In this document: in pieces, positions 32,182-41,598 of the stretch
Layout of the letters: every line of letters starts with the position of its first letter
Position numbering within the stretch: the first letter of the stretch is position 1
Assembly (NCBI GenBank): GCA_027946365.1
Contig: JAPEUQ010000013.1
Coordinates: forward strand, 248,001 to 312,000
DNA from: Kalmusia sp. IMI 367209
Taxonomy: Eukaryota > Ascomycota > Dothideomycetes > Pleosporales > Didymosphaeriaceae
DNA length: 64,000 bases
Reading direction: 5' to 3'
Made by a program: the position numbers and the translations under genes
Notes under the pieces: model-generated
What the model was told of the DNA's origin: nothing
The model's database searches: none
What the model saw: the letters and a program-made list of their open reading frames with translations, nothing else

Positions 32182-33431
32182 TGTGTCCGATTGTATGAGT
32201 ATCGTAACCTGCGGTCCCAGATGTGAAGAAAAAAGGCGAAGCCTTGGAATTGAAAATCGAAAGAGCAGACTTCGCCTCCCAGCAAAGGGGTATGCAGAGG
32301 GCCATGCAGGTCTTTAAGCGCTCCGAAACCTGCACTGTTGTATTGTGCTTCCGTTGTACCACTTGATGTACACGCTCATTGGTCGGTGGTTCCGCTCGTA
32401 ACCCTTTTTGGCATCCGGATATGTTCCACCCAAGGTGCTGGTGTACCGTCGCAATCAATTTCTGCGGGGGCGGGGTACCCACAGTGCGGGAAGTGTCATT
32501 GTTCCCAATGATCGGACTGGGCAGTATCAGGTACATAATTAGATGGGGCCAACAGTTGCAGCTACCGTCACGTTGTTAACTTGGGGTAAATTAGACCTTG
32601 TCACCACGTGCGCTTTTAGTACTTACAAATAGCGAAGAGTATCACCGTCTGTACTTCGTATTGATAGCGCCAATTCTCTCAGTAGAATAGTTGTATGTTT
32701 GAGCCTATTCATTTCTTTTTTTTTTCAAATCTTCCTATCTCTCCTTGACGGTCCAGCGAGGAGACAAATGTAGTAATCATAGGCAGTGAATTGTTCTCCG
32801 TGTAAGCTACGGGCTGTTTGTACCCATCCGGATGGCTTCCCTTTGATCATATAAAATGACTCGTTTTACAATGTATCGCGAGAATATCGAGGATCGTCGA
32901 TACGTTAGTGATTACCAGGGAGGCAAGAAGATAGACTGTGGCCTTTGGCATGTTTGAGGAAAAGTAGGATCCGATTTCGCGCTCACACTTTATGATCTCC
33001 TTGGCAGGATCTGATCAAGTAGATACTTGCTGCCATTGCTTAGGTGCTTAGTTTCGATAAGTCTTGTTATATGATTGTTGGGCTTGCGGAGCTGTGACCG
33101 ACTGACGTGTGAGAATTCACGATAGCGGAACCAGGTTTATCCAACCTCATCTCTCGCGATACGGACTGCCCTTATCCTCGTCAATCGATATGTAGTTTTC
33201 ATTCTTTTTTCTTGCTCGTGCTTGAAAGAGGGTATGCGTGTCATATGCTTAGATCGGTGCGCAGGTGCCACGTTCTAAGGTTCGGTGGCTATGCTCCGGG
33301 CTATGCTCGGAAGTGGGAACTCGAATACGAACCGGCAGCTTGCCTATTATTCGGGCGCTCCTGTGCTTTTGCCATCACCATCCTAGCATATTGTTTAGAG
33401 AACACAAGCCTCGGACAGGAATTGCCCAACA
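32182..33431. other. Intergenic region upstream of the HET genes, no gene seen
   Basis: About 1.25 kb, AT-richer than its neighbours, with a T-run near 32717-32725. Frames such as 33212-33544 plus overlap the HET start out of frame and look spurious. Confidence 0.5.
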
Positions 33432-35531
33432 ATGGAGCAGTATATGTATCAACCATTACCCACATCTTCGTCCATTCGCCTCCTGAAGTTCGACCCAGGA
33501 AACGAGGACCTTCGATGCAGCTTCGTCATCGTAGACACAAATAACGCTCCGTCATATATAGCCTTATCATATGTCTGGGGCGACCCAGCGAACCCTCTGC
33601 CTATCTACATTGACGGAAAAGTCGTTCGAATCACCCAAAACTTGCATAGTGTGCTCCTGCACTTCCGCAAAACGCCAGCTCTACTTTGGGCTGATGCGCT
33701 ATGCATCAATCAGCAGGATATACCTGAAAAAAATACGCAGGTCAACATGATGTCGAGTATCTATCAGCATGCTGCCACGGTGGCTGTATGGCTAGGTACC
33801 GATGAATACGGCGATGCAGACGATATCTTCGAGGATGCTAAAGCATTTATTGACTTCACAACCCTTGTCATGGAGTCAGAAGGTCAATTTGGTCACTTTG
33901 ATGAAGTAAGCGGCGACATATACTGGCAGCTTCCAGACAAGAGAAGTATTGTTTCTAAGCTACCTGAAGCGATCGTTACCCCGGATGAAGAGGAAATAGC
34001 ACGCCTCACGAGGTTCTTGCGTCTCCCATACTGGTCAAGAACATGGGTACTTCAAGAAATAGGCTTGGCGAAAGAAGCGGTTATCCTGTGGGGTGGCAAA
34101 GCATTTCAATGGGAGGCTTTCGGGCTGTTCGCAATGTTTCTTCATCGGCATTGTAAAGCCTTGTTCATCAAATTGGACTTGATAGCTGAACTGGAGCGAC
34201 TGGTGAACGTATATTTGACGTTTTCGCCATTCAGACCCATGTCTACCTTCCTCCACGTCCTTCACAACGTTAGACGATTCAATGCGACAGATCCAAGGGA
34301 CAAGGTTTTTGCACTACTGTCACATCCTGCTGCGCGTACAATCAGTCCGACTATTACCTCTTTGGGATGGCATGGCTATCGACCAGCTGCACCGATGGCG
34401 TGCTTTCTCACTGCGGATGATCGCGAGCGGTACCTCATCCAAGTACAATTTGAGAGGCGCACAGAAGCATCGGAGTCGTCCCGACCTCTTTTACCACCTT
34501 TGATCCAAGCTGACTACGAAAAACCGAAAGATGAAATCTACTTTGAACTGGCCATGGACCATATTCAGAGACATGAAAGCCTCGAAATACTCTCTACTGT
34601 ACAACACAACCCCAATGCTTCTGATGAGTTGTTTTGTCCCAGCTGGGTCCCTCAGTGGGATTATTACGTCGATGCACCAATCTTTGGATTCTACTCAAGT
34701 CAAAGCATGGCTTCTGCGAACAAGAGACCAATAACAACACGCTCGTCGCCTGGGGAGAAGACCTTGACGCTACGTGGTGCACTCCTCACAAGAATCACAT
34801 TACATACAGAAGTGCTGAAGCCGTCTTCCTTCAACCTCCCCCTACCAACCACTCCCACCACTGCCGACTCACCAGAAGTGCAGTCATTTTGGGCTGAGAA
34901 CCCAATCGCAAATCTTTGGTTGAAGGGGTTTCGGCATCTCGATCCGGAAAGCTATCCAGTCCTAACCGGCGAAAAATTCGCGCTATATAACCAGGGCGCA
35001 AGCAATGTATATAGTGCATACATGTCTACGTGGGTTGCAGGGATGAAGGTAGGCCAAGTCACAGGAAATTTCGCGCTATCAATACACACCAAAGCATACT
35101 GGGATCGTCTATTCTACGGTTCAGAAGGTGATTCTTCGACCTCATTTCCGCGAATAACTATCGAGAAAGATGTTCACATGGATAATCCTGTTTTGAACAG
35201 CCAACTTGCGTGGCAGCAGTATCGCGACGCAGCAATGGATGTGTGCAACAACCGCAAATTCTTTTACACGAAGAAAGGGTTCTTTGGAATTGGTCCAGGC
35301 GCACTTAGAGAAGGGGACTTTGTTGGCGTGTTGCTAGGCGGGGACGTACCTTTCATACTGCGGGAGGTATTGGATGACGAGGAAATGAGTTGGGAAGAGA
35401 GGAAACATCTGAACCTTCCAGTACCCATGGACAGAAAGTTTCAGCTTGTGGGCGAATGTTGGGTTCGCGGTTTGATGGAAGGTCAGGCCGTGGGGGCAAT
35501 GGACTTTCAGAGGAACATCACTTTAGTATAG
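33432..35531 (+). CDS. HET-domain (heterokaryon incompatibility) protein 1
   Basis: A single exon of 699 residues, a typical size for fungal HET-only proteins. Its HET domain spans about residues 42-210. Markers are YIALSYVWGDP (motif I), LLWADALCINQQD followed by KNTQVNMMSSIYQHAATVAVWLG (motif II), and RTWVLQEIGLAKEAVILWG (motif III). The rest is the usual divergent HET C-terminus, ending with ALREGDFVGVLLGGDVPF, then ECWVRGLMEG. HET domains act as TIR-like effectors that trigger programmed cell death after non-self recognition; for most members the trigger is unknown. No NACHT, ankyrin or WD40 region is attached. It is convergent with the second HET gene, with 315 bp between stops. Confidence 0.93.
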   Translation: MEQYMYQPLPTSSSIRLLKFDPGNEDLRCSFVIVDTNNAPSYIALSYVWGDPANPLPIYIDGKVVRITQNLHSVLLHFRKTPALLWADALCINQQDIPEKNTQVNMMSSIYQHAATVAVWLGTDEYGDADDIFEDAKAFIDFTTLVMESEGQFGHFDEVSGDIYWQLPDKRSIVSKLPEAIVTPDEEEIARLTRFLRLPYWSRTWVLQEIGLAKEAVILWGGKAFQWEAFGLFAMFLHRHCKALFIKLDLIAELERLVNVYLTFSPFRPMSTFLHVLHNVRRFNATDPRDKVFALLSHPAARTISPTITSLGWHGYRPAAPMACFLTADDRERYLIQVQFERRTEASESSRPLLPPLIQADYEKPKDEIYFELAMDHIQRHESLEILSTVQHNPNASDELFCPSWVPQWDYYVDAPIFGFYSSQSMASANKRPITTRSSPGEKTLTLRGALLTRITLHTEVLKPSSFNLPLPTTPTTADSPEVQSFWAENPIANLWLKGFRHLDPESYPVLTGEKFALYNQGASNVYSAYMSTWVAGMKVGQVTGNFALSIHTKAYWDRLFYGSEGDSSTSFPRITIEKDVHMDNPVLNSQLAWQQYRDAAMDVCNNRKFFYTKKGFFGIGPGALREGDFVGVLLGGDVPFILREVLDDEEMSWEERKHLNLPVPMDRKFQLVGECWVRGLMEGQAVGAMDFQRNITLV

Positions 35532-35846: not shown

Positions 35847-37997
35847 TCATAAACGTAAAAAATATCCAACTCTCTTGAAACATGGCCTCCCGTGATCATC
35901 CCCTCTCACTAGCACAAGCCCTTCTTGGAAAGGCTTTACAACTTCCAAGCACGTGACTACAAGTTCACGGCCCTTGACGGCGTCAAGATCGTCGCTTGTA
36001 TCAGGCATCGTGCTTAGGAAGAAATTCAAGCCAGGATCGCCATTCCTTCCTTTCAACGTCTTTCCATCTTCACACCAAAGTAGCTCCGCCACTCTTCCCT
36101 GGACTGTCAAGAGCGCAGATCTAATGGCTCCAAACTCATTATACCCCTGCTCGATCTCCGCTCTTACATCCAATATTTTGATCTTGGTCTTGATATCGTC
36201 CCAGTTCCCCGTGTGGTCCGGATCCCACTGAATTGGAGAATCGATGCTCGTCCACGACCAGCTCGGTGCTCGATAAGTCCTTGGTCGCGGCCGTGCAGGC
36301 TCGCTGTCCAACCTATACCATAACAAGTCAAGCGCTAAATACCGGCGCCACAGGCCAGCATAATAATCGTCTCTGAAGATCTTTTTGTAGGAAGAGGCGA
36401 TGGCAGACATGGCCAGCAATTTGTCGCCCGGTTCAGTCAACTTGCGCGAACTATACGTTTCGCAGATTAAACGCCACTGCTCCAGGAAATCAACGTCCTT
36501 TGGAACCTTGATCTTCGGCGAGTCGTCGAAAAATGTTGGGTCACGCAGGCCAGCAAGATCATCGTCGAAGAATTCGTTGATGTAGGAGCCATGGGATTCG
36601 AGGAGAGAAAGGCAGCTCCAGCGCATGCCGTACGTGTCAAATGTCAGTGTGCGCTGTGACACGAGAGTTTCCTGCATCGTCCATCCACGCGAATTGATCG
36701 GCTCGTCATCTTCAGAGTAAATCGCATACTCTGCGATCACTATGGTGCCTTTTTCACCACTAGAGCAATTGTACGGTAGCTTGAAGGCATCTAGTTGTTC
36801 ACAGGGTATCCCACGGACACCAAGAAAACCGTCCTTGGCTACTGAAGCACTTGCGCCGGTGATGGTGACGAGCGCGTTCTTATATATGTTTGGCATGTTA
36901 GTGATTTCTTTTGCCTTGTCCTCATTCGAGTCTTGTAGAATGCAAAGCGCATCGACCCAGAGAAAGCGAAGTCCCAGCTCGCGAGTGATGAAAATGGCGT
37001 CCTGGATGGACTGTGAGAATGATGCCGTCTCGAGCCCGTTGACCATCTCTTGAATGTTCTTGGATGTTGTCATTGGGGTCTGAGGACCACCCCAACAGTA
37101 GCTGAGCGCAGCGTAATCACCTCTTTCATTCGCTCTGGTAATATAGACTTGGGGTCGGGGAGAGCTGATGTCAAGGACGCGCGTCGGTAGAAACAGGTTC
37201 GAGCGATGAGAACACTTCTTGTGCTTGTTATGACAGTCCGAGAGCCAGGTCCGGGCATGCTCGAGGCTCTTTGCAGAAGCGACATCTCTATAACTGCCGT
37301 TTCGTGGTCTATTCGATATATTTCGAGCTGCAGGATCATCTAAAGACTATTAGAATGTGAACTTAGTCATGCCATCAGCATCTCGCATACTTTCTGTGGC
37401 AAAGGCTTCCATTACAGGTGCATAGGCACCTTTGAAAGCCGTACGGAATGATCGTTCATCGCTTGGGGTCTTTAAATTTTCCTCTTCTCGCAAGTGAGCC
37501 ACTATACCTGCAGAGTCCGCCGTTGTACTCTCCCATTGCCAGCACAGGAACTTGACGTCGTTTTTTGCGCTTTGCTCAGCCCGCATCAGAATGATGGCTA
37601 GACGAGTGAAAGCTGGAGGCATGGTATAGTCAACCTCCAAAGTAATGCCTACATCCTCATCATCGAACGCGTAGTATGTGCGATCGAGGATGAAGTTGAA
37701 TAGAAGACAGCCTTGCGACGCTCCGTTCTCTATGGTTCCACGTGAGATATGGTAGACTTGACTAACTCGCTTGTTCTTCTTCGTGTAACTTTTGAAATTT
37801 GTGGCTGCATTTTTGGATGTGAGAAGGTCTTCGCAGTGGTGGCAAGTATGCGCTGTAGAAGCATCAGGCGCCACGACGGACAAGTCACGCATATGCGAAG
37901 CGTGTTTGCATATTTTCTTCCGTTTATGCTGACCGGCAAATGGAGAGACTATAGAGGGCTCTGGAAATGTAAGCTCGAGTAAAGATATGCCCGCCAT
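35847..37997 (-). CDS. HET-domain (heterokaryon incompatibility) protein 2
   Basis: Two exons (37997-37391, 37339-35847) give 699 residues. The N-terminal about 275 residues are the variable region seen in this HET subgroup. They include a Cys/His pair region (CKHASHM, then HTCHHCEDLL) and WLSDCHNKHKKCS just before the domain. HET motif I, YAALSYCWGG, is at about 280. Motif II is FLWVDALCILQDSNEDKAKEI plus IYKNALVTITGASA, and SRGWTMQETLVSQRTL is motif III. The C-terminus ends CFKRVGYFLRL; a spliced alternative into 35827-35726 is conceivable. It probably has a cell-death or allorecognition role. It lies only 160 bp downstream of the viperin relic in the same direction. Confidence 0.88.
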
Positions 37998-38155
37998 GAT
38001 TGTTCTGAATAACTAATGCATGATACTGACTTGACAAGCTGCTCTAGATATATCTACCTAACTTGGGGGCTGTGGTCCTATACCAAGAACTTAGTAAGCA
38101 AGGCTGAGACAAAATGTGTGAAAGCAAAGAGTGCCCCACAGGAACCTTGCAATCA

Positions 38156-38772
38156 TTATCGCATGTTTTTCCTGTTGTCATCAGCGCTGCATCCTTCTTG
38201 TTCCGACAGAGCCGAACTCGTCCAATCATAGTTATTTCTCCGATCAACAAAGGACTTCCCACCCCAGACAAACCGCTCATAGCTTCCTTCACGCCAACAT
38301 CTAGAATCGACTTACTGTTATTCACCGTCACCTCAAATTTGTCTATAAAGTACATGTATTTGTCTAGAAGTAAGTTGCTACTCACTATAGTAGAGTTGTC
38401 TCCAGGGACATAGCAAGGAAGGTGTTTGTGCCGGTCGCAAAACGTGTACCACTGCTCGTCAGTGACGAGAATGGACATCGCGTCTCGCTTCCTCGTTTCG
38501 TCGTCATTCTTACCAGTAATAATGAGGCACTGGAAGGTTTGTCACGGGAATGGCGCCAACTTTTTGATCTGAGATGACATGTCTGCGTTCTAATTGTACG
38601 TGTTGACGACGGTGTTCAGCTTGACTTCAATGTCCTACTTACAGCACCATTCAGCAATTTCAGCGAGCTAAATCATATCTCCTCCATCATCGTCGAGTCC
38701 TAGCTTCTTGTTTATCCCTAGGTTGAACAAGTCGCAAGATATGGCGAGAATGTCTAGGCGTTTACCGTGCTA
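38156..38772 (-). pseudogene. Decayed viperin-like (RSAD2-type radical SAM) gene fragment
   Basis: Read straight through on the minus strand, 38772 to about 38275 gives one frame with clear C-terminal-half viperin blocks: KRLDILAISCD, AEIAEW, VKLNTVVNTYN, FQCLIITGKND, and YVPGDNS, then LLLDKYMYFIDK, then NNSKSILDVGVKEAM. After a one-base frameshift (about 38262-38275) the adjacent frame continues with KSFVDRRNNYDWTSS, matching the viperin C-terminus, and stops at 38156-38158. In-frame stops occur at 38770-38772, 38668-38670, 38636-38638, 38591-38593 and 38542-38544. The N-terminal half with the CxxxCxxC iron-sulfur motif is not recognisable. Viperins make chain-terminating ddh-nucleotides in animal, archaeal and bacterial antiviral defence. 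This copy cannot be active. Confidence 0.85.
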
Positions 38773-39443
38773 TTGCATTGGTACGTACATATCTAAACCA
38801 ATTTTTCTACTCCACTGACGCATCCCAAAACCACCCGGTGCCGGAAAAGGCACTATCTACGCGCATCTCGCAATACAACCTCATACACTACATACATAAT
38901 CTTCATTCGTACGTAGATGCGCGAGAAACGTGATACCCCGCAAGCTCAATAATTAGGGCTTCCTCACCTCGGGAAGATCTGAACCCATTTACCTATAGTG
39001 CGATTGAAGATGCTCTCACTAGAGGCAAACCAAACTCTACAGGTATCCTGTTTGATGGATATCCACGGTGCATAGAGCAGTTTAACACTTTCTTCACGTG
39101 GCCATCGCCAGAGAGCAAGCTGTGGCAGGACTGTCGTCAAAGGAAACAGTCGCTTTCTTTTTTCAAGGGAGTAGGCGTTGTCAAATAAGCTCGCAACAAT
39201 AGTAGAATATAGTCTAGGTAGGGTATTAGTCCTTCGCAGTGATGCGATCTCCAACTATAACGAAATATCATCCCAACGTGCTTCATTTTGCATGGTTGTG
39301 TTCCTTCCTTCCATAGCACGATTTACTCCTGATCATAACACACTACAGCCAAAAAGAATAGTCAGTAAAACGCCCGGCAGCGTATGCAAAATGAAAACCA
39401 CATCGTCTTTCTGGGCTAGAGACAAACAGTCGCAAAAAGAAAT
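38773..39443. other. Region upstream of the viperin relic, no gene recognised
   Basis: If the viperin gene was once full length, its radical SAM half should lie here on the minus strand. I scanned 38773-39300 in the minus frames and found no CxxxCxxC motif. A 96-codon minus frame (38964-39254) has no recognisable content. Confidence 0.45.
39434..39438 (-). terminator. Pol III terminator of tRNA-Val
   Basis: A run of five T on the minus strand begins 6 nt after the 3' end of the tRNA, as expected for RNA polymerase III termination. Confidence 0.75.
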
Positions 39444-39526
39444 GACTCAGCCGAGGTTTGAACTCGGGACCTTCAGTGCGCTAACGCATGTTAGACTGAC
39501 GTGATAACCAACTACACCACCGAGCC
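39444..39526 (-). tRNA. tRNA-Val (anticodon AAC) with a 10-nt intron
   Basis: The minus strand folds as a full tRNA. Acceptor GGCTCGG pairs with CTGAGTC (two G-U). D arm: GTG/CAC around TAGTTGGTTAT. Anticodon stem: TCAGT/ACTGA. T arm: CCGAG/CTCGG around TTCAAAC. The anticodon loop is CTAACA..C with anticodon AAC and a 10-nt insertion TGCGTTAGCG after the base 3' to the anticodon, the standard intron site. Removing it leaves 73 nt without CCA. GTTAG in the intron can pair with CTAAC of the loop, forming the usual intron-anticodon helix. The A and B box positions are intact. Confidence 0.93.
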
Positions 39527-40064
39527 GTTGCTTGATGTAAAATTATCCAGTTGCATATAATATATAGACCTATCAAGTGTTACGCCAGCGAGGCGCATGA
39601 GCAGGAGGGCAGTCAAAGAAAGCATTGTGGGAAAACTGTGAGCGGGAAGTGGGGACGGCGGGGCTTAGTTTCGCGAGAAATATTCCGATTGGTGGTGCAG
39701 AGTTGACAGGGAACCATTAGCATGCGACCTCCCTCCTACTCCTCACTTGTTTTACGAATCCGAATCTATTTTTGAAAAATAGGCCTTGTAGAGCTACATG
39801 TATCGTAGTGCCGCTTTGGCATCACATGGACAGTCAAATTTTTTCAAAATTATTTTATTCTGATGTTGCAACTTTATCGCACAGGTGACAAACAAGCTAG
39901 GGGGAGAGGTTTTGATCATTAATAGTAAACTCGTTACATCCAAATCAAAGCGCCGCCCAATGCCCAATTTCGCTAATGTGGTGGTATCTCGGTCTCCAAA
40001 TAAGTTCAAATCAAGTCCCGAAAAACGCCTCTCAGTTCCCAATTCTCTTACGTCCTCTCTACAC
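39527..40064. other. Intergenic region, no gene seen
   Basis: About 540 bp between the tRNA 5' flank and the 3' end of the DOMON-b561 gene. Only short domain-free frames occur. Confidence 0.5.
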
Positions 40065-41598
40065 CTACTTTACGTAGACGGGCACCCCCGGGTGCATGTT
40101 CATTAGATACTGCGGTCCAGGCATCGTTCCTCCGCCAACAACTCCCCTCCAATCTGCACTCCCTTCACTTCCTGCGCTTAGTCCCCGCTTGTGTCCATCC
40201 CAGCTCTCTTGTCCACCTGACAACTTCTTCTTGACTCCCCACTTCGCGAGCCCAAAGTCTCGCTCGTCTTCTTCGCCTAGTCGGCGCCGTGTGGTAGCGC
40301 GTGCATAGGCTGAGCCACGCCGCCGCACGCATAGCATGATGAAGGTGGTGAAGACGAAAACAAGGAGCGTGATCGCGACGTAGGCGAGGATGATGGGATT
40401 TGCGGTCGAAGAGAGGCGGAGCCCAAGACCGCCGGTTAGGACGAGGACCGTGAAGGTAAGGTTTGTGAGGGGCATATGAAGACGCGGTATCCACGATTTC
40501 AATGCAGCGAAGGGGCGGGTGGGCAGGAGCGACATGAGGAGGATGGGGAGCAGCGCTAGGAAGGCGAGGATCTGGTGTGGGGAGGTGTAATACTTGGACT
40601 GTACAGTGGTTAGTCTGGAATGCACTATTGAGGTTTGCGGGAGAGAGGCTTACGCGGTTGTAAGACGGACTTGTTGCGATTCCGAGAGCGTATGATATGA
40701 TGAGGAAGACCAGGATGGCGATGGACATTCCAACATGAATCTTAATGTTACGGAAGAAGCCCGCGAGAATGACATTGATCGGCCATAGCACGAATAGCGC
40801 TATACAGCCCATGAAAGCGTGCGCGAGGTTCATCCTATCGTGGTCTTTCACTATGCCTTGAAGCTGGACACCTTTCAGCTGGGTCTCGGGCTGAGGAGTT
40901 CCGGCATCAGAGCTACTCGCGGCCACCATATCCATCGTGAACTTTCCGTAGCGAACATGTCGTCTAAGTGGCGCATTGAGATCGTCGGATTGCAATCGAG
41001 TTCCAGGTCCGAAGGCGAAGATCATAGGGTTAGTGGTGGAGGAAGTATCAAGGAAGCCGCCGGGCCAGACACGGCAAGTGCGACAGATTGCCTTGAGGAC
41101 GAACATCTCATCCTCGATTCCGGTTCCATTCAAAATGTCCAACCGAATGCTTGGCGCGAAGCTGGGTTCGGTGTTGCCGGTTGAGAGGCGAGGGCTCACA
41201 GTGAAGTCTGCAGCGCATTAGGACTTATACGAAAGCCAACCTCTGTGTCATGAGTGAAGGATGCATCAGGGGAGGACATACTGTCTCCATTCGCATTGGG
41301 ATACAGCACCAGCATCAAGCTGTTCTTCATGTTTTCTCCGAACCCCACACCCACCCATGAGTACGCCGGGCTTGTGAAATAAATGAAGACATCGGTTGAG
41401 TCGTTTGCCAGGCTAAGTGAGAACTGTGTCTCCGTCTCCTTGAGATAGAATGTCGAAGCCGGTGGGCTTTCCTGTTGCTGTGCGTGAAGAAGGGTTGCGA
41501 ATACTGCTCCTCGTCAGCCCCCATCCGTCGAACCCACCATCAAACCCGAAGTGTTACTTACGCGCAACAACCAGCGCTCTCACCCAAAGTCCAAACAT
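40065..41598 (-). CDS. Secreted-type DOMON plus cytochrome b561 membrane protein
   Basis: Four exons (41598-41562, 41503-41282, 41207-40654, 40598-40065) give 448 residues. A signal peptide (residues about 1-20, ending FATLLHAQ) is split by the first intron. Next comes a DOMON/cellobiose-dehydrogenase-type cytochrome domain (TFYLKETETQFSLSL, SPAYSWVGVGFG, with a Met in GENMKNSL). Then about five or six hydrophobic helices of a b561 ferric-reductase-like domain, with histidines in NLAHAFMG, IKIHVGMS, TSPHQILAF and RLHMPLTN that could ligate two hemes. The basic C-terminal tail is cytosolic. Such proteins move electrons across membranes, perhaps for iron reduction or extracellular oxidoreductases. 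Confidence 0.88.

Follow-up and report, generated by a model that had tools for sequence, protein, structure and literature searches.

A viperin pseudogene and a second viperin relic in the genome of a filamentous fungus

Viperin makes chain-terminating nucleotides against viruses. The window analyzed here, the whole stretch of 64,000 nucleotides, carries on its minus strand a broken copy of the C-terminal half of viperin (relic 1). Very probably it is a pseudogene of the viperin of the main ascomycete lineage that has lost its 5' half; a second viperin (relic 2) has also decayed elsewhere in the genome, and none appears to be left. The gene family is a known one in fungi, and a pseudogene such as relic 1 is ordinary in itself. 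Only the combination with relic 2, by which a single genome seems to have lost viperin twice, goes beyond the routine. The second relic and the apparent double loss are new. By title or start of abstract, no report of viperin loss or viperin relics in fungi is found among the open-access papers listed.

Relic 1 and its relatives

A single frame on the minus strand (38778-38278) encodes the C-terminal half of viperin and is broken by five in-frame stops, four TAG and one TGA. The stop at 38772 is at the extreme edge, ahead of the first conserved block. This main block (38278..38778, minus strand) extends from just before LDILAISCD to KSILDVGVKEAM and has 167 codons, 5 of which are stops. The C-terminal end, KSFVDRRNNYDW and the tail (38156..38277, minus strand), follows a frameshift and is in a different frame. 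For a filamentous fungus, the initial annotation had described a relic of viperin with at least seven blocks in a given order on the minus strand, five in-frame stops, and one frameshift. The seven named blocks, the stops, and the frameshift are all found. The first six blocks belong to the one frame of 38778-38278 and the seventh to the next frame within 38290-38159, and the extent given for the relic, 38156..38772, is correct to a few bases. Relic 1 keeps the colinear order of the family-specific C-terminal half of viperin.

When the whole genome is searched with the viperin profile TIGR04278, relic 1 is found with E 1.1e-41 and 146.8 bits, at profile positions 153-320 of 347. This is under the curated cut-off of 450 bits, which is out of reach for half a gene. 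With the stops entered as X, the translated main block matches TIGR04278 (E 8.9e-43, 146.6 bits), the prokaryotic viperin model NF038283 (E 7.2e-26, 91 bits), and the PADLOC pVip model PDLC02903 (E 9e-24). Both prokaryotic pVip models recognize relic 1, but NF038283 gives it a lower score than TIGR04278 does. Searched in the same way against PDB, the main block matches 6b4c viperin with E 2.8e-40 and 141.6 bits over 166 residues. At E up to 1 there are nine PDB matches; every one carries the name viperin, viperin-like, or radical SAM protein and aligns to the same half. Mouse RSAD2 (5VSL) represents the vertebrate members of the same family. It matches relic 1 over the C-terminal half of viperin with E 2.1e-35 but scores below the fungal 6B4C (125.7 vs 141.6 bits), and unlike RSAD2, relic 1 is not functional. 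A Pfam search of relic 1 gives no match at E up to 1. Note that at E up to 10 TIGR04278 also matches 11 of 14 control genomes, no fungus being among the 14 and no match exceeding the cut-off; weight is therefore given to strong E-values only. The similarity of relic 1 to viperin is far beyond chance.

The frameshifted end is recognized separately. Of the tblastn matches listed, the 40 that do not belong to the main match all fall within 38290-38159, and 38 of these 40 have E 2.9e-6 to 1e-3 when searched against the window. Against the whole genome the end appears with one query, as a row of its own apart from the main match (E 0.119). Where at least 95% of the intact rows agree, relic 1 retains 42 of 59 columns; the other 17 are altered, one of them to a stop.

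Possibly the C-terminal half is still expressed and has a new role, in the form of a short protein or at the upstream end of a HET transcript. A stop-free frame of 165 codons exists at 38541-38044, about 88 codons of which are viperin; by itself it matches TIGR04278 with E 4.7e-22 and PDB with E 9.2e-18, and a HET gene comes next on the same strand. The viperin match, however, spans all five stops and the frameshift, 17 of the 59 strongly conserved columns are altered, and viperin chemistry should be impossible without the iron-sulfur half. Continued expression in a new role is very improbable.

Relatives of relic 1 are found by a phmmer search of a 5.8-billion-protein collection, in which 292 candidates are scored and 120 listed. 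With E 0.001 as the limit, 149 of the 292 pass. The best of the 292 (E 7e-62) is protein P0001 of Karstenula rhodostoma, 63% identical to relic 1; on the alignment 105 of 162 positions are identical. This protein has 342 amino acids and a radical SAM domain and is apparently intact. The host was placed by its lipoyl synthase alone. With a 363-aa piece as query and 7999 candidates scored, the closest are an unnamed sequence (90% identity) and Bimuria novae-zelandiae (87%), over 86% of the query, followed by further Dothideomycetes. Bimuria and Karstenula both belong to Didymosphaeriaceae (Pleosporales), and K. rhodostoma and the host fungus are probably in one family. The suggestion of the initial annotation that related strains may carry the intact gene is right to the extent that this one probable family member has an apparently intact protein. 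Bimuria is absent among the 120 viperin matches listed, which says nothing about a lack of the gene in Bimuria. Other named matches come from Daldinia, Lasiodiplodia, Botryosphaeria, Fusarium, and Alternaria, and many of the named ones are Ascomycota.

The position of relic 1 was examined in two trees, both built without prokaryotic rows and with many rows unnamed. The first includes the 120 listed proteins minus ten under 250 amino acids, and relic 2 is partly misaligned in it. The second includes 32 chosen rows and the two relics, with relic 2 represented by its clean pieces. Relic 1 lies inside a 62-row group in the first tree (support 81, not starred) and inside a 26-row group in the second (95/96); in both groups the named members are fungi. 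On the trees relic 1 falls within the fungal viperins. Its join with the Karstenula row is without support (40/0, second tree). Vertical descent of relic 1 is most likely.

Viperin was presented in the initial annotation as an enzyme of animals, archaea, and bacteria. This is too narrow, as indicated by the many ascomycete matches, a characterized fungal enzyme (PMC9642334), and a clade of animal and fungal viperins (PMC10732462). It is reported that the thermostable viperin of Thielavia terrestris (TtRSAD2) makes ddh nucleotides (PMC9642334), that animal and fungal viperins form one clade, and that the last eukaryotic common ancestor is inferred to have had viperin (PMC10732462). PDB 6B4C is reported as the viperin of Trichoderma virens (PMC8124187). 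Viperin in fungi is already known, including a characterized enzyme and a solved structure, so its presence in a fungus is no surprise. Relic 1 resembles these ascomycete viperins in its C-terminal half (63% identity to Karstenula, 166 residues aligned with 6B4C) but differs from them in having no detectable iron-sulfur half and in being broken by stops and a frameshift.

The missing iron-sulfur half

The Karstenula protein has 135 residues ahead of the point where relic 1 starts, and the cysteine motif CNYTCGFC is among them. In relic 1 this N-terminal (iron-sulfur) half is undetectable. With the 85 of the 120 listed proteins that have a separable N-terminal half as queries, the best tblastn match in 38701-40100 has 22.3 bits, vs 20.4-24.6 bits in 20 dinucleotide-preserving shuffles. 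That the half is not found agrees with the initial annotation. Over the whole window the best match has 27.3 bits, at a distant place and without a shuffle control. The half would be expected at 38779..39442, where there is no trace above the shuffled controls; three ORFs tested there give a single Pfam match at chance level (ADK, E 0.076, under its cut-off). A search of the genome for the radical SAM domain finds five places, neither relic among them. Relic 1 thus lacks two features of a functional viperin, the radical SAM iron-sulfur motif and an open frame over the whole enzyme.

The missing and the retained halves are about equally conserved: columns conserved in at least 95% number 34 of 90 in the missing half (counted from residue 46 of the Karstenula protein) and 59 of 167 in the retained part. 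Since halves equally conserved are expected to be equally visible, deletion of the 5' half is likelier than slow decay, and relic 1 probably lost it by deletion.

An error of sequencing or assembly might also make a living gene look broken, but only the presence of a frameshift speaks for it. Such an error would have to produce the missing half, five stops, the frameshift, and many conserved-site changes in combination, and the HET frames that adjoin relic 1 are long and open. The probability of this is negligible, and the damage is taken as that of a pseudogene.

The second relic and the viperin content of the genome

In the whole genome TIGR04278 matches two places only, with E 10 as the limit: relic 1 and a place on a 145-kb contig (C18:97638-97919; E 1.9e-15, three TGA). 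The same two places come up when two intact proteins and the stop-free frame of relic 1 are used as queries. The initial annotation is incomplete in this respect, because the second relic lay outside its stretch. Relic 2 extends over about 97600-98190 of C18 (about 1469-2056 of L010) as pieces in several frames and is more decayed than relic 1. One frame matches 6b4c viperin with E 6.5e-23, and another has weak matches to the same proteins (E 0.02-0.03). By eye, the pieces appear to continue to a C-terminal end. No N-terminal half is detected in the 1480 bases upstream of relic 2 (23.5 bits vs 20.0-25.4 in shuffles). On the same contig, a few kb before relic 2, there is a 583-codon open frame with a DUF7924 match (L011:3783-5531).

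In the second tree relic 2, with 83 residues placed, groups with P0097, P0107, P0109, P0113, and P0114 (93/86), and a 95/96 branch separates this group from relic 1. A tree that makes the two relics sisters is rejected (p-AU 0.008). With relic 2 inside the clade of relic 1, p-AU is 0.076, above the 5% rejection level, in a test that also forced together rows standing apart in the free tree. Relic 2 was put on the columns of P0097 by pairwise alignment, which biases the tree toward P0097. As this placement favors the P0097 clade, the lineage call is of moderate strength: relic 2 probably belongs to another fungal viperin lineage than relic 1.

Two coding pieces of relic 2 are separated by 118 bp (L010:1829-1946) that start with TGT, end with ACA, and are flanked by CTAAG and CTAAA. 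Dozens of copies of 63 bp of this insert exist in the genome at 84-100% identity. Some of these copies form five pairs with a spacing of about 6.7 kb (on C25, C29, C13, C10, and C12). Three pairs were compared: in one the two copies are identical over 195 bp, and in the other two they are about 95-96% alike. The 118-bp stretch can be read as an internally shortened solo LTR. An intron, the other candidate for the interruption, is excluded by the genome-wide DNA search, which points to a piece of an LTR.

Relic 1 may instead have begun as a fragment: the 3' half of a viperin gene, brought in by duplication or transposition, would never have been a working gene at its present place. In keeping with this, the C-terminal half alone is detected in both relics, and just 5' of relic 2 there is a 142-bp repeat (L010:1309-1450) that is 79% identical to C18:69512-69653 on the same contig. 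A parent copy, however, is not found in the genome, and neither is any further DNA copy of 38100-39460. In 36500-41000 no repeats of at least 16 bases occur, whether direct or inverted, and for several relatives the match of relic 1 ends only two or three residues short of the native C-terminus. Arrival as a fragment is unlikely for these reasons, and the loss of a resident gene is the preferred reading.

The gene behind relic 1 was very probably a viperin of the main ascomycete lineage, a radical-SAM nucleotide dehydratase of fungi. Its enzyme presumably converted CTP or related nucleotides to ddh nucleotides, which would halt RNA polymerases. This gene lost its 5' half, probably through a deletion, and also acquired the five stops, the frameshift, and the changes at conserved sites, with no order implied. 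A second viperin, probably of another fungal lineage, has decayed on another contig, where an LTR retrotransposon left what can be read as its solo LTR within the relic.

No intact viperin is found in the 42.8-Mb, 30-contig assembly with the TIGR04278 profile and the two intact-protein searches, in an assembly that is perhaps incomplete and in which a many-intron gene could score poorly. The host fungus appears to be without viperin now, with two different copies lost. Piwi domains are found at three loci in the genome, all free of stops, so RNA silencing has probably been kept. A tentative interpretation, somewhat short of an even chance, is that viperins of two lineages were once together in a fungal ancestor and have both died out, with the RNA silencing genes kept, as part of a birth-and-death turnover of viperin in Pleosporales. 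If this is true, turnover may occur because chain-terminating nucleotides are costly once the target viruses are gone, and viperin relics would record past antiviral pressure. A natural comparison is offered by this genome, which seems to have dropped two viperins, and by a probable member of its family whose protein is apparently intact. The comparison bears on whether fungi gain protection from mycoviruses through viperin and on what the loss of viperin costs. In the available parts of the literature cited here on fungal viperins, no test of the role of viperin for the fungus itself is found.

Neighborhood of relic 1

Upstream of relic 1 is a tRNA gene on the minus strand (39443..39526), detected by Rfam (RF00005); ARAGORN with bacterial settings finds no tRNA. 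Directly downstream and on the same strand as relic 1 is a probable HET-domain gene (35847..38012, minus), separate from the viperin gene. It consists of the open frames 37350-38012 and 35847-37346, the latter containing the HET domain, and the two frames are joined into one gene by inference. The HET-domain genes at 33399-35531 (plus) and 35847-38012 (minus) lie beside relic 1 tail-to-tail. The genome has at least 150 HET matches (150 scored of 370 candidates). HET genes are so common in this genome that adjacent ones are unremarkable and give no reason to propose a fungal defense island.

Repeat-induced point mutation (RIP) was considered as a cause of the decay of relic 1 and rejected: no 500-bp step of the window satisfies the three values used (TpA/ApT of at least 1.1, (CpA+TpG)/(ApC+GpT) of at most 0.75, and a composite index of at least 0). 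In relic 1 these values are 0.83, 1.04, and -0.20, respectively. The composite of -0.20 is above the window mean of -0.50 and above those of two neighboring genes (-0.69 and -0.62), and old or mild RIP may have acted on relic 1.
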